A DNA stretch of 64,000 bases from Arthrobacter sp. ISL-48 (GTDB taxonomy: Bacteria > Actinomycetota > Actinomycetes > Actinomycetales > Micrococcaceae), in contig NZ_JAGGPL010000003.1 in assembly GCF_018613805.1 (NCBI RefSeq), forward strand, positions 124,001 through 188,000, read 5' to 3'. Below the pieces are notes generated by a model. It saw nothing but the letters and a program-made list of their open reading frames with translations. It searched no databases and was not told the DNA's origin. The position numbers and the translations under genes are program-made. Positions 53,714-58,097 of this stretch are shown in pieces (the first letter of the stretch is position 1; every line of letters begins with the position of its first letter).

Positions 53714-56263
53714 CTATGCCGGGACGATGTTCACCAGTTTAGGCACGCGGACGATCACCGTGCGGATGCCGCGGCCGTCAAGTGCACGCTGGACATTTTC
53801 CGAGCCCAGCGCAAGCTCGCGGAGCCGGTCCTCGCTGATGTCAGGCGCGACCTCCAGGCGGTCCCTGACTTTGCCCTGCACCTGAACGACAGCTGTGACG
53901 GTGGCCTGGACCAGCAGGGACTCGTCGTGCGCAGGCCAGCCCGCGTTGGCGACGGAGGCTTGATGGCCCAGGATATTCCACATGTCCTCCGCCGTGTAGG
54001 GCGCAAAGAGGCTGAGGATGACGGCGACCGCCTCCGCGGCCTCCCGTACGGCCGGGTCCGCAGCGCCCGCGCCGGAGTCAATGGCCTTGCGGGTTGCATT
54101 GACGAGTTCCATGAGCTTGGCCACCACAACGTTGAACTTGTTGTGGTTCAGCAGCTCCGCCGCATCCGCGATGGTCCGGTGCGTCACAGACCTCAGCGCG
54201 CGGTCACCGGCAGTGAAGTCGGCTCCGGGGAGGCTGGCCACGTCCTGGGCCAGGCGCCATGCCCGTGCCAGGAACTTCGCAGAGCCCGACGGCGAGACGT
54301 CCGCCCAGTCCACGTCATCCTCTGGCGGGGAGGCGAAGATCATAGTCAGGCGCACGGCGTCCACACCATACTTATCGAGCTGTTCGCCAAGGTCCACGCC
54401 GTTGCCCAGCGACTTGCTCATGGCTTTGCCGCCATTGAGGACCTGGCCCTGGTTCAGGAGTGCACTAAAAGGCTCATCAGTGTCGATCATGCCCAGGTCG
54501 TGGATGACCTTGGTAAAGAACCGTGCGTAGAGCAGGTGCAGGATGGCGTGCTCCACGCCGCCCACGTACTGCCCCACCGGCATCCAGTCGTTGATCTTCT
54601 CGGGATCGAAGGGACCTTCGGTGTACTGGGGCGAAACAAACCGCAGGAAGTACCAGGACGAGTCAACAAACGTATCCATTGTGTCGGTGTCGCGCTTGGC
54701 AGGACCGTGGCAGTTGGGGCACGCAACGTTGACCCAGGCTTCGGCAGCCGCCAGAGGCGACGTGCCTTTCGGAGACAGGTCTTCGCCGCGCAGGTCCGCC
54801 GGCAGGGTGACGGGCAGCTCGTCGTCAGGCACCGGCACTTCGCCGCAGTCAGGGCAGTGAATGATCGGGATGGGCGTCCCCCAGAACCGCTGGCGGCTCA
54901 GCAGCCAGTCCCGCAGGCGGAAGTTGACGAACTTTTCGCCCGTTCCCTGCTTTTCCAGGATGTCGATCGCCGCCGGAATGGCCTCCGCCTTGAGCAGGCC
55001 GTCCAGGACGCCGGAGTTGATCAGGGTACCCTCCCCTGCTGTGGCCGTGCCTGAGACGGCGGGGTCCTCCTCGCCGGTGTCCAGTACGGCTCGGACGGGC
55101 AGGTCGAAGGTCTTCGCGAAATCGAGGTCGCGCTGGTCGTGCGCCGGAACGGCCATGATGGCCCCGGTGCCGTAGTCGGCCAGCACGTAGTCGGCAGCCC
55201 ACACGGGCAGCTTCTCGCCGTTCAGCGGATTGACGGCGTACCTGCCGGTGAACACACCTGTCTTTTCGCGCTCAGTGGACTGGCGTTCGATTTCGGTCAG
55301 CGCCTTGACCTGTTCGCGGTAGGCATCCAGGGCAGCCCTGTGCTCGTCCGTGACCAGCTCAGCCGCCAGCGGCGCATCGGCGGCCACGACGAAGAATGTG
55401 GCGCCGTAGAGGGTGTCCGGGCGCGTGGTGAAGACGGTGACGTCCTTGGCGGGCCTGCCGCCGTCGGCCTCGATCACAAAGCTGACGTGCGCGCCTTCGG
55501 AGCGGCCGATCCAGTTCTTCTGCATGGCCAGGACACGTTCGGGCCAGTGTCCGCGCAGCTCGTCCATGTCATCCAGCAGCCTGTCGGCGTACTCGGTGAT
55601 CTTGAAATACCACTGGTTCAGTGACTTCTTGGTGACAGGGGTGCCGCAACGCTCGCAGGCGCCGTTGACCACTTGCTCGTTCGCCAGCACCGTCTGGTCC
55701 TTCGGGCACCAGTTGACCGGGGAATCCTTGCGGTAGGCCAGGCCGCGCTCGTAGAAACGCTTGAACAGCCACTGGGTCCAGCGGTAGTAGCCGGGGTCGG
55801 AGGTGTGGAGCCGGCGGGACCAGTCCGCCGAAATCGCGTACCGCTTGAAGGACGCGGCCTGCGTATCGATGTTGGCGTAGGTCCACTCGCTGGGGTGCGC
55901 ATTGCGTTTGATGGCGGCGTTCTCGGCAGGCAGGCCAAAGGAGTCCCAGCCAATCGGGTGCAGCACGTCATAGCCCTGCTGGCGCAGGTACCGCGCCACC
56001 ACATCACCCATGGCAAAAGCCTCGGCGTGGCCCATATGGAGGTCACCGGATGGGTACGGGAACATGTCCAGCACATAACGGCGCTCGCGGGACCCGTCAT
56101 CAACGGGGGTGAAGACCTTCAGGTCTTCCCATACCTGTGGCCATTTGGCCTCCATCGCGGCGAAGCTGTAGGTGCCTTCCTCAGGACCGCCCGCTGCCAC
56201 TGCTGATGTTCCGGTTTCTGTCTCCGGCTGAACGCTCACTGCTGCCCTCTTCTGTTCTGTCAT
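53714..56263 (-). CDS. leuS: Leucyl-tRNA synthetase
   Basis: LeuRS charges tRNA-Leu and edits errors. The 849-residue class I enzyme has the HIGH equivalent HMGH in [16 protein letters not shown], a zinc-type pair ([18 protein letters not shown]), the CP1 editing domain ([32 protein letters not shown]), and MSKS in [17 protein letters not shown] 56263 is chosen; the open frame continues to 56413, but that part is the attenuator leader. There is no ribosome binding site at this ATG. Instead AGGAGG serves a six-codon mini-ORF whose stop overlaps it, so translation is probably by reinitiation. Confidence 0.95.
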
Positions 56264-56280
56264 CGCATCGGTGCTGCCAT
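56260..56280 (-). CDS. Six-codon mini-ORF coupled to leuS
   Basis: ATG at 56280 encodes MAAPMR and stops at TGA overlapping the leuS start codon (ATGA). AGGAGG (56297-56292) lies 11 bases before its ATG and is the only good ribosome binding site in the leuS leader. The arrangement suggests translational coupling; expression is inferred. Confidence 0.45.
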
Positions 56281-56327
56281 GACGGTCTGATCCTCCTGCC
56301 GCTGGCCGTAAACAGGCCCGGACACAC

Positions 56328-56351
56328 AAAAGCCCCTCTCCATGGAGGGGC
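56328..56351 (-). terminator. Intrinsic terminator in the leuS leader (attenuator)
   Basis: On the transcript GCCCCTC (56351-56345) pairs with GAGGGGC (56338-56332) around a six-base loop and is followed directly by TTTT (56331-56328). It lies 40 bases after the stop codon of a leucine-rich leader peptide and 65 bases before the leuS start. A transcription attenuator is inferred. Confidence 0.7.
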
Positions 56352-56390
56352 GGCCGCACGGCGATCCGTTTGTTTCCGGATACCGGGCGG

Positions 56391-56417
56391 CTAGCTAAGC
56401 AGAAGGATCGCACGCAT
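56391..56417 (-). CDS. Leucine-rich leader peptide of leuS
   Basis: ATG at 56417 encodes MRAILLLS then TAG: Ile and three consecutive leucine codons (CTT CTG CTT) within eight codons. TAAAGT (56429-56424) lies six bases upstream, so the leader is probably translated from a leaderless mRNA. Ribosome stalling at the leucine codons when charged tRNA-Leu is scarce would favour transcription of leuS. Leucine attenuators before leuS are known from some streptomycetes. Confidence 0.7.
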
Positions 56418-56493
56418 AGGACTACTTTAGCGCACCGGTCCCTTCACATAAACGTAAGTCGCCACGAGCGGCTGGATAGGACGGGTATTCGAC

Positions 56494-56569
56494 GAGAGGG
56501 GCCGGTGACTCCCCGCCATGGTGTGGTGGGCACCGCGAAGCGGGCGGGCGGGAGTCACCGGCCCCTCTC
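56494..56569 (-). terminator. Long inverted repeat after glpK
   Basis: A 19-base arm at 56494-56512 is exactly complementary to 56551-56569, with a 38-base loop that contains GC-rich sub-hairpins. It begins 14 bases after the glpK stop and separates the glycerol operon from the leuS leader. No T tract is seen on the minus strand. Confidence 0.6.
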
Positions 56570-56582
56570 ATTCAACCCGGGA

Positions 56583-58097
56583 CTATTTCACGTCCTCGTC
56601 GACCCAATCCATGGACTTGGTGACTGCCTTCTTCCACAGCCGCATCTGGCGGTCCTGCTCTGCCTGGTCCATCTTTGGTTCCCACCGCTTGTCCTCGGAC
56701 CAGTTAGCGGAGAGTTCCCCCAGGTCCTTCCAGAAGCCGACGGCGAGACCCGCGGCGTAGGCCGCACCCAGTGAGGTGGTTTCCACAACCTTGGGCCGGA
56801 TCACCGGAACACCAAGGATGTCCGCCTGGAACTGCATCAGGGCATCGTTAGCGACCATGCCGCCGTCGACCTTCAACTCTGTCAGCGGAACGCCTGAGTC
56901 TGCGTTGACCGCATCCAGCACCTCCCGCGTCTGGAACGCCGTGGCCTCAAGTGCTGCGCGGGCGATGTGGTTCTTGTTGACGAACCGGGTGAGGCCGACG
57001 ATGGCCCCGCGGGCGTCCGAGCGCCAGTACGGCGCAAACAGGCCGGAGAACGCCGGAACAATATACACGCCGCCGTTGTCCTTGACTGAGGCCGCCAATG
57101 ATTCCACCTCGGGTGCGCTGCTGATCATGCCCAGGTTGTCGCGCAGCCACTGGATCAGGGAACCAGTGACCGCGATGGAGCCTTCCAGCGCGTAGTGCGG
57201 TGCTGCGTCGCCCAGTTTGTACCCCACTGTGGTCAGCAGGCCGTTCTTGGAGTGGACGATTTCCTCACCGGTGTTGAAGATCAGGAAGCAGCCTGTCCCG
57301 TACGTATTCTTCGCTTCGCCGGTCTCGAACGCAGCCTGGCCGAAGGTCGCGGCCTGCTGGTCACCGAGGATGCCCGCCACGGGAACCTCGCGCAGCAGCT
57401 GCGAGGTGTGGACGGTCCCATAGACCTCCGAAGAGGACTTGATTGCGGGCATCATGCTGAGCGGCACTCCGAAGATCCCCAGGATCTCCTCGTCCCAGCT
57501 CAGGGTCTCCAGGTCCATGAACAGGGTGCGGGAGGCGTTGGTGACGTCCGTGACGTGCACGCCGCCGTCAACACCGCCCGTCAGGTTCCAGAGAACCCAT
57601 GCATCGGTATTGCCGAACACCAGGTCACCGGCTTCCGCTTTTGCCCGGGCGCCCTCGACGTTGTCCAGGATCCATTTGATCTTGGTGCCCGAGAAGTACG
57701 TGGCTAGCGGAAGGCCCACCTTCTGCTTGAACCGCTCCGGGCCGCCGTCCCTGGACAGCTCATCCACGATGTCCTGCGTCCGGGTGTCCTGCCACACGAT
57801 CGCGTTGTAGACGGCTTCACCTGTGGTCTTGTCCCACACGACGGCCGTTTCGCGCTGGTTGGTGATGCCGACGGCGGCAATATCGTGCCGGGTCAGGTTC
57901 GCCTTGGACAGGGCTGAGGCGATGACCTCACGGGTGTTGTTCCAGATCTCGGCGGGGTCGTGCTCCACCCAGCCTGCCTGCGGAAAGATCTGCTCATGCT
58001 CCATCTGGCCGGAGGACACGATGTTGCCGCTGTGGTCAAAGATGATGGCCCTGGAACTGGTGGTGCCCTGATCGATGGCGATTACGTACTGGTTCAT
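56583..58097 (-). CDS. glpK: Glycerol kinase
   Basis: GlpK phosphorylates glycerol to glycerol-3-phosphate. The 504-residue FGGY kinase has [15 protein letters not shown] at the start, [52 protein letters not shown] and [25 protein letters not shown]. Family length is normal. Third gene of the glpD-glpF-glpK order on the minus strand. Confidence 0.97.

Follow-up and report, generated by a model that had tools for sequence, protein, structure and literature searches.

A leucine leader peptide and two abutting hairpins upstream of leuS in Arthrobacter and other actinobacterial genera: a probable attenuator with a tentative contact mechanism

The window, a stretch of 64,000 nucleotides from Arthrobacter sp. 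ISL-48, carries on its minus strand a gene which we take, from its sequence, to be leuS encoding leucyl-tRNA synthetase. Upstream of this gene lie in order the -10 hexamer TAAAGT of the leuS promoter (56424-56429), a gap of 6 nt, a leader open reading frame presumed to be leaderless (56391-56417), a hairpin termed B:C (56353-56391), a linker of one base (56352), the identity of which varies, and the hairpin of an intrinsic terminator (56322-56351), all on the minus strand. The leader codons ATG CGT GCG ATC CTT CTG CTT AGC TAG (56417-56391) encode MRAILLLS*, while the terminator consists of the stem-loop GCCCCTC-CATGGA-GAGGGGC at 56351-56332, 39 nt past the leader stop, and the tail TTTTGTGTGT at 56331-56322, and is the single terminator-like site detected by a terminator scan of 56200-56600, with 0.2 expected in shuffled sequences. 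An earlier note on this DNA had pointed to the hexamer, the ATG 6 nt further on, the peptide MRAILLLS and its three Leu codons, all of which can be read in the window sequence, and to a GC-rich 7-bp hairpin with a T-run after the leader stop and before leuS, which is confirmed by the sequence and the terminator scan. The hairpin B:C, identified by folding with its 5' arm B at 56391-56377 and its 3' arm C at 56368-56353, is absent from the earlier note; it sits between leader and terminator and starts on the final G of the TAG stop codon of the leader.

The longest leuS frame (open reading frame 53714-56413) opens at a GTG at 56413, inside the leader. The GTG at 56239, five bases past the likely Shine-Dalgarno sequence AGAGGG (56250-56245), is the likelier and most probable start, leaving leuS at 53714-56239, because of this Shine-Dalgarno sequence and its conservation, as AGAGG[GC]CAGCAGTG recurs in front of leuS in relatives; automatic annotation may thus start leuS too early. 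The upstream gene on the same strand, presumably a glycerol kinase gene (glpK), ends at 56583. Behind this gene, a perfect 20-bp inverted repeat is located at 56494-56569, after which no T-run can be seen by eye, and a near-identical inverted repeat occurs in the relative L043. The loop of the inverted repeat was considered as a repeat family, an idea dropped with its occurrence at two places in the genome, one with a mismatch.

Considered in isolation, the leader of the window folds moderately better than shuffled sequences (z -1.86; 7 of 200 shuffles as good), no sigma-70-type promoter was found by a scan of 56200-56600, and no Rfam family matched at gathering score in the window, with chance-level matches only at the locus. 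With the moderate fold score and the empty promoter scan, the case has to be built on relatives; equally, as the promoter scan is empty, the promoter call is based on the -10 hexamer and its conservation.

Within the genus of the window, the promoter-leader pattern TAnnnT, 3-9 nt, ATGCGNGCNATHCTNCTNCTN was found in 83 of 101 genomes, once in each, and a backwards control pattern in 0 of 101. Among the 18 genomes without the pattern, 15 show a strong LeuS match and three, with a completeness of 68, 82 and 90%, weak matches only; all 15 with leuS carry a variant leader with, for example, a GTG start, MHAILLLS or MRAILVLS. In the genus, each of the 65 loci checked has leader, terminator and leuS side by side; these loci comprise 50 of the 83 pattern matches (fetched as 30 and 20) and the 15 variant-leader loci. 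All 83 pattern matches have exactly 6 nt between TAnnnT and ATG, although 3-9 nt had been allowed, and this invariance in 83 of 101 genomes places the leader arrangement beyond chance. The earlier note had named a lack of conservation as evidence against its reading; in fact, the Leu leader and the hairpin are conserved in leuS upstream regions of the genus and of many genera of the class.

The fixed gap from the -10 hexamer fits a leaderless transcript. In 81 parsed leaders of the class and family the gap between -10 and start amounts to 6 nt in 57 and 7 nt in 23, with one, L170, misparsed, by a parser that prefers a 6-nt gap. The leader ATG is thus placed as in leaderless transcripts, from which arrangement a transcription start at the ATG, and hence a leaderless leader, is presumed.

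A covariance model built from 55 genus leaders with a 1-nt linker, the matches of which therefore lean towards short linkers, matches 96 of 197 family genomes (18 of 32 genera) and 100 of 394 class genomes (34 of 137 genera and, by our own count, 16 families); 101 family and 294 class genomes show no match. Reading of 86 family and class loci, out of 99 non-window rows in the class alignment with 13 relatives left out, located 82 before leuS, three before ilvB and one at a contig end. The leaders of class relatives are Leu-rich, as in VRTGLLLTEPR. In 26 genomes without a model match (15 family, 11 order), a search for LeuS matched 19, and in 16 of these no leader was detected by eye in the 500 nt inspected. 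The remaining three, L192, L193 and L195, possess a -10 hexamer, a short open reading frame and tandem hairpins with degenerate leaders of one to two Leu codons (read by eye as MVLRPVLR, MYSQRDLA and VNRHVLLP), which are perhaps decaying attenuators. The leuS leader element is not universal in the family or the class.

Independently of the structure of the 3' parts of the hairpins, which were not used in choosing loci, a search of named genomes required a match to CTBCTTASCKRGCCGC and retrieved at least 119 leader loci, with the 80 titles listed being mostly Streptomyces and including Arthrobacter, Paenarthrobacter, Nonomuraea, Thermoactinospora, Microlunatus, Nocardioides and others. Among the matches listed, leuS is within reach in 113 of 119 loci. 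Four of the remaining six run out less than 360 nt from the leader; in L317 an LLL leader is present but no leuS was recognised, and L313 is apparently a chance match. The leader pattern was also seen in L279, titled Sporosarcina beigongshangi and thus not an actinobacterium, which is probably a contaminated assembly.

The covariance model matches equally the ilvB leaders of L159, L169 and L170 (family f21), e.g. VRSILVVSEHVG, in which the stop codon lies in the first hairpin and about one base separates it from the terminator. In the genome of the window, the best IlvB match is found at G000:C32:478744-479202 with 76% identity; upstream of this ilvB (L189, near G000:C32:479300), a frame ends AVVLTKRVAQ* and is followed by two hairpins with 0 bases between them. 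As read from these sequences, the tandem-hairpin plan appears before ilvB also.

Support for the two hairpins comes from covariation in the class alignment, where 16 of 20 pairs of both hairpins have changed on both sides and double-sided change cells number 218 (shuffles, 43.9; slid controls, no more than 36), counts that lean towards the model as the class alignment was fitted to the structure of the covariance model. The five strongest mutual-information pairs all fall within the two hairpins, followed by weaker ones among promoter and start columns. Within the genus the outer hairpin arms are invariant, hence pairing is uninformative there.

Geometry was assessed, together with folding, pausing and the ribosome model, in 76 leaders, after parsing of 81 of 87 and removal of L170 and four leaders without a recognised terminator. 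In 74 of 76 sequences, hairpin B:C starts 4-6 nt past the last Leu codon. Relative to the first base of B, the leader stop occupies -2/-1 in 37 sequences and +6 to +8 in another 33. The linker between B:C and the terminator measures 0, 1, 2 and 3 nt in 27, 41, 7 and 1 sequences, respectively, that is 0-2 nt in 75 of 76. Among the matches listed of the pattern-found set, 109 of 112 distinct leuS leaders equally have a linker of 0-2 nt, the exceptions being linkers of 12 and 15 nt and one leader without a recognised terminator. The arm of B:C ranges from 6 to 29 nt in length, so that compactness cannot be the whole reason for the short linker. A covarying hairpin that overlaps the leader stop and abuts the terminator at 0-2 nt seems to be new, no such variant being described in the passages and abstracts of the literature considered here.

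CTT serves as the last Leu codon in 68 of 80 leaders, compared with a share of 11.6% among 1515 Leu codons in 36 long open reading frames, a baseline that comes from the window whereas the leaders span other genomes. This preference may reflect either codon choice for sensitivity or an RNA constraint.

A leader open reading frame with Leu codons in front of the cognate gene and an intrinsic terminator between leader and gene are features of a trp-type attenuator, in the textbook form of which an upstream segment pairs with a terminator arm upon stalling of the ribosome. In Streptomyces, leuS attenuators have been predicted in S. avermitilis and S. coelicolor and are described, in the part of this comparative study of 2005 considered here, as classical with antiterminator hairpins (PMC1262725), whereas in the present analysis none was found that pairs with the terminator. 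In a helix scan of 100 aligned sequences, which covered aligned columns with at most 30% gaps and allowed no mismatches, no 5-bp helix between the 5' arm of the terminator and an upstream partner was present in more than 2% of the sequences and no 4-bp helix in more than 6%, while the helix of the terminator itself was recovered in 99-100%. Mutual information in the class alignment gave no sign that the 5' arm covaries with any column upstream of it. Equally, folding of the 76 leaders in four ribosome states, as well as inspection by eye, gave no antiterminator. The mean probability of the terminator was 0.98 in ribosome-free leaders, 0.99 with a ribosome on the first Leu codon, 0.99 with one on the last and 0.98 with one on the stop codon, although single lower values exist (0.36 in L160 with the stop codon occupied). 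As long as the 3' arm has yet to be transcribed, the mean probability that the 5' arm is paired upstream was 0.24, 0.02, 0.18 and 0.27 in the same order of states, so that a ribosome on the first Leu codon would favour termination most, contrary to what the classical logic demands. All these values come from equilibrium folding, which takes account neither of RNA polymerase and kinetics nor of the stacking of one hairpin on another.

Two individual candidates for such pairing were rejected. A helix between C and the 5' arm of the terminator (C:T5; GAGCGG-CNG-CCCCUC), seen by eye in the genus alignment, is absent from the scan, its five-pair form having a mismatch, which the scan disallows. The pairing of GCGATCC in the leader of the window with GGATCGC has, by eye, no counterpart in relatives with short B:C loops.

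An antiterminator that shares an arm with the terminator was thus not found. The statement of the earlier note that the parts and order of a classical attenuator are present is therefore not supported, as covariation, the scan with the 5' arm and four-state folding all came out empty. The textbook arrangement, which is favoured by the 2005 description, by the ability of the Leu codon run to pair over 5 bp with the 3' arm of the terminator in up to 48% of the 100 sequences and by the omission of gap-rich columns from the scan, is nevertheless unlikely in view of the rarity of aligned helices with the 5' arm, its missing upstream covariation and the high terminator probability in all four states.

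The structure that is clearly controlled by the leader ribosome in the model is B:C. With the downstream edge of the ribosome assumed 12 nt past the first base of the A-site, the modelled median share of B:C energy kept in the 76 leaders is 100% when the A-site holds the first Leu codon, 41% when it holds the last and 17% when it holds the stop codon. In 74 of 76 leaders, B:C is predicted to lose more to a ribosome on the stop codon than to one on the last Leu codon. By these medians, more than half of the energy of B:C would already be gone when the ribosome stalls on that Leu codon. For the window, the modelled values for the first Leu codon, the last Leu codon and the stop codon are -24.5, -12.6 and -8.9 kcal/mol, and with -8.9 of -24.5 kcal/mol left at the stop, masking of B:C in the window would be incomplete.

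That the element is a leucine attenuator of leuS is held with high confidence. That the attenuator, in addition, works through control of B:C by the ribosome is considered probable, with distinctly less assurance. Since a synthetase gene should be ON when its tRNA is uncharged and the leader ribosome appears to control B:C, formed B:C would have to be the ON structure, an assignment for which the chances are about even. As B:C shares no base with the terminator, contact between the two hairpins, that is abutment, is proposed as the physical cause, a suggestion that is tentative. Since the predicted terminator persists whichever of the four ribosome states is modelled, base pairing does not explain a switch.

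The sequence of events would then be as follows. Transcription would begin at the leader ATG, with a ribosome following RNA polymerase and translating the leader. If Leu-tRNA is plentiful, this ribosome would get to the stop codon, at or inside the 5' arm of B:C, whereby B:C would be lost or weakened, the terminator would close and leuS would be cut off. Under a shortage of charged Leu-tRNA, it would be held at the Leu codons, B:C would be largely free and leuS would be read through. The base pairs of the terminator would close in the RNA exit channel, which a second stem 0-2 nt upstream would have to enter too, and the base of B:C touching the base of the terminator would hinder the last terminator pairs. 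A widespread attenuator in which a ribosome-gated hairpin with no nucleotide in common with the terminator blocks it by standing against its base, because two hairpins cannot both occupy the exit channel of RNA polymerase, is put forward as a possible reading of rather low probability.

The same hairpin can be assigned another task. The trp attenuator includes a pause hairpin, and B:C might likewise hold RNA polymerase for the ribosome, with the terminator set by coupling of ribosome and polymerase instead of B:C acting as the ON structure. A pyrimidine-G step about 10 nt past the hairpin in 43% of the 76 sequences agrees with such a role, but this signature is weak, as the step is not confined to one distance and is seen in 17-43% at 9-14 nt, and pausing by itself is silent on how leucine shortage gives read-through, which makes this explanation improbable. 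Even less probable is that the terminated leader serves mainly as a stable small RNA or a source of peptide with little regulation of leuS; while two strong hairpins would stabilise such an RNA and a terminator is predicted in every state, the Leu codons before leuS across the class and the fixed distances of the Leu codons and the stop codon to B would be left unexplained. The preferred reading thus remains a leucine attenuator with ribosome control of B:C.

The kind of element is already known, with the window holding the Streptomyces leuS kind in another family. In the part of the report on S. lividans TK24 considered here, the leuL2 leader of leuS encodes MRAVRLLLSEPR with three Leu codons, is leaderless and is followed by a hairpin and uridines (PMC8079986). 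Gene, three-Leu leader peptide and hairpin with a U-run before leuS are common to both, with the leaderless start reported there and presumed here. The placement of the ATG fits the suggestion of the earlier note of a leaderless leuS leader in a Micrococcaceae-like genome; the leaderless feature is not new, as leuL2 has been reported leaderless, according to the same passages (PMC8079986). The layout of the window was also found here in genomes with the MRAVRLLLSEPR peptide and in Streptomyces, with a difference in the stop codon, which is usually TAG at the first base of B:C in the genus of the window and TGA inside B:C in the Streptomyces type. What is added here are the spread, the geometric rules and the missing antiterminator.

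Related leaders precede other genes. The passages on the 'fast' attenuator of C. glutamicum ilvBNC describe hairpins base to base that have in common a GCC trinucleotide, which switches partners, and mutations at the base of the terminator that raise expression (PMC11857589). A near-leaderless leader open reading frame (presumed leaderless here) and adjacent hairpin bases (with a linker of 1 nt in the window) are the same, whereas the GCC shared there contrasts with no base shared here, as judged by fold and covariation, and gene and amino acids differ. In M. tuberculosis ilvB1NC, as far as the passages considered describe it, a short uORF with branched-chain codons precedes an intrinsic terminator and a ribosome at the stop masks the antiterminator (PMC13236596); the logic is similar, but terminator and antiterminator are mutually exclusive there, the leader has 166 nt and the gene is another. 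The LEU element of leuA in Actinobacteria, in the corresponding passages (PMC1262725), has a leucine leader peptide in common and shows a pseudoknot and no obvious terminator, while here two hairpins and a terminator are found before leuS. The passages of PMC10272879, PMC11109978, PMC8632094 and PMC4833913 contain no leuS leader. Equally, titles and abstracts revealed no leuS attenuator in Arthrobacter or its family, with a 2010 survey of aminoacyl-tRNA operon attenuation possibly listing more leuS cases. This comparative study reportedly treated the attenuation of such operons.

Attenuation of leuS would thereby extend from a prediction in two streptomycetes and one report of a leaderless leader to a device found in numerous genera of actinobacteria and following rules that can be measured: a start where the transcript should begin, CTT mostly as the last Leu codon, a hairpin 4-6 nt further on, the stop codon on this hairpin and the terminator 0-2 nt beyond. 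With competition of base pairs missing, it also raises the testable question of whether a hairpin can stop a terminator without overlapping it.
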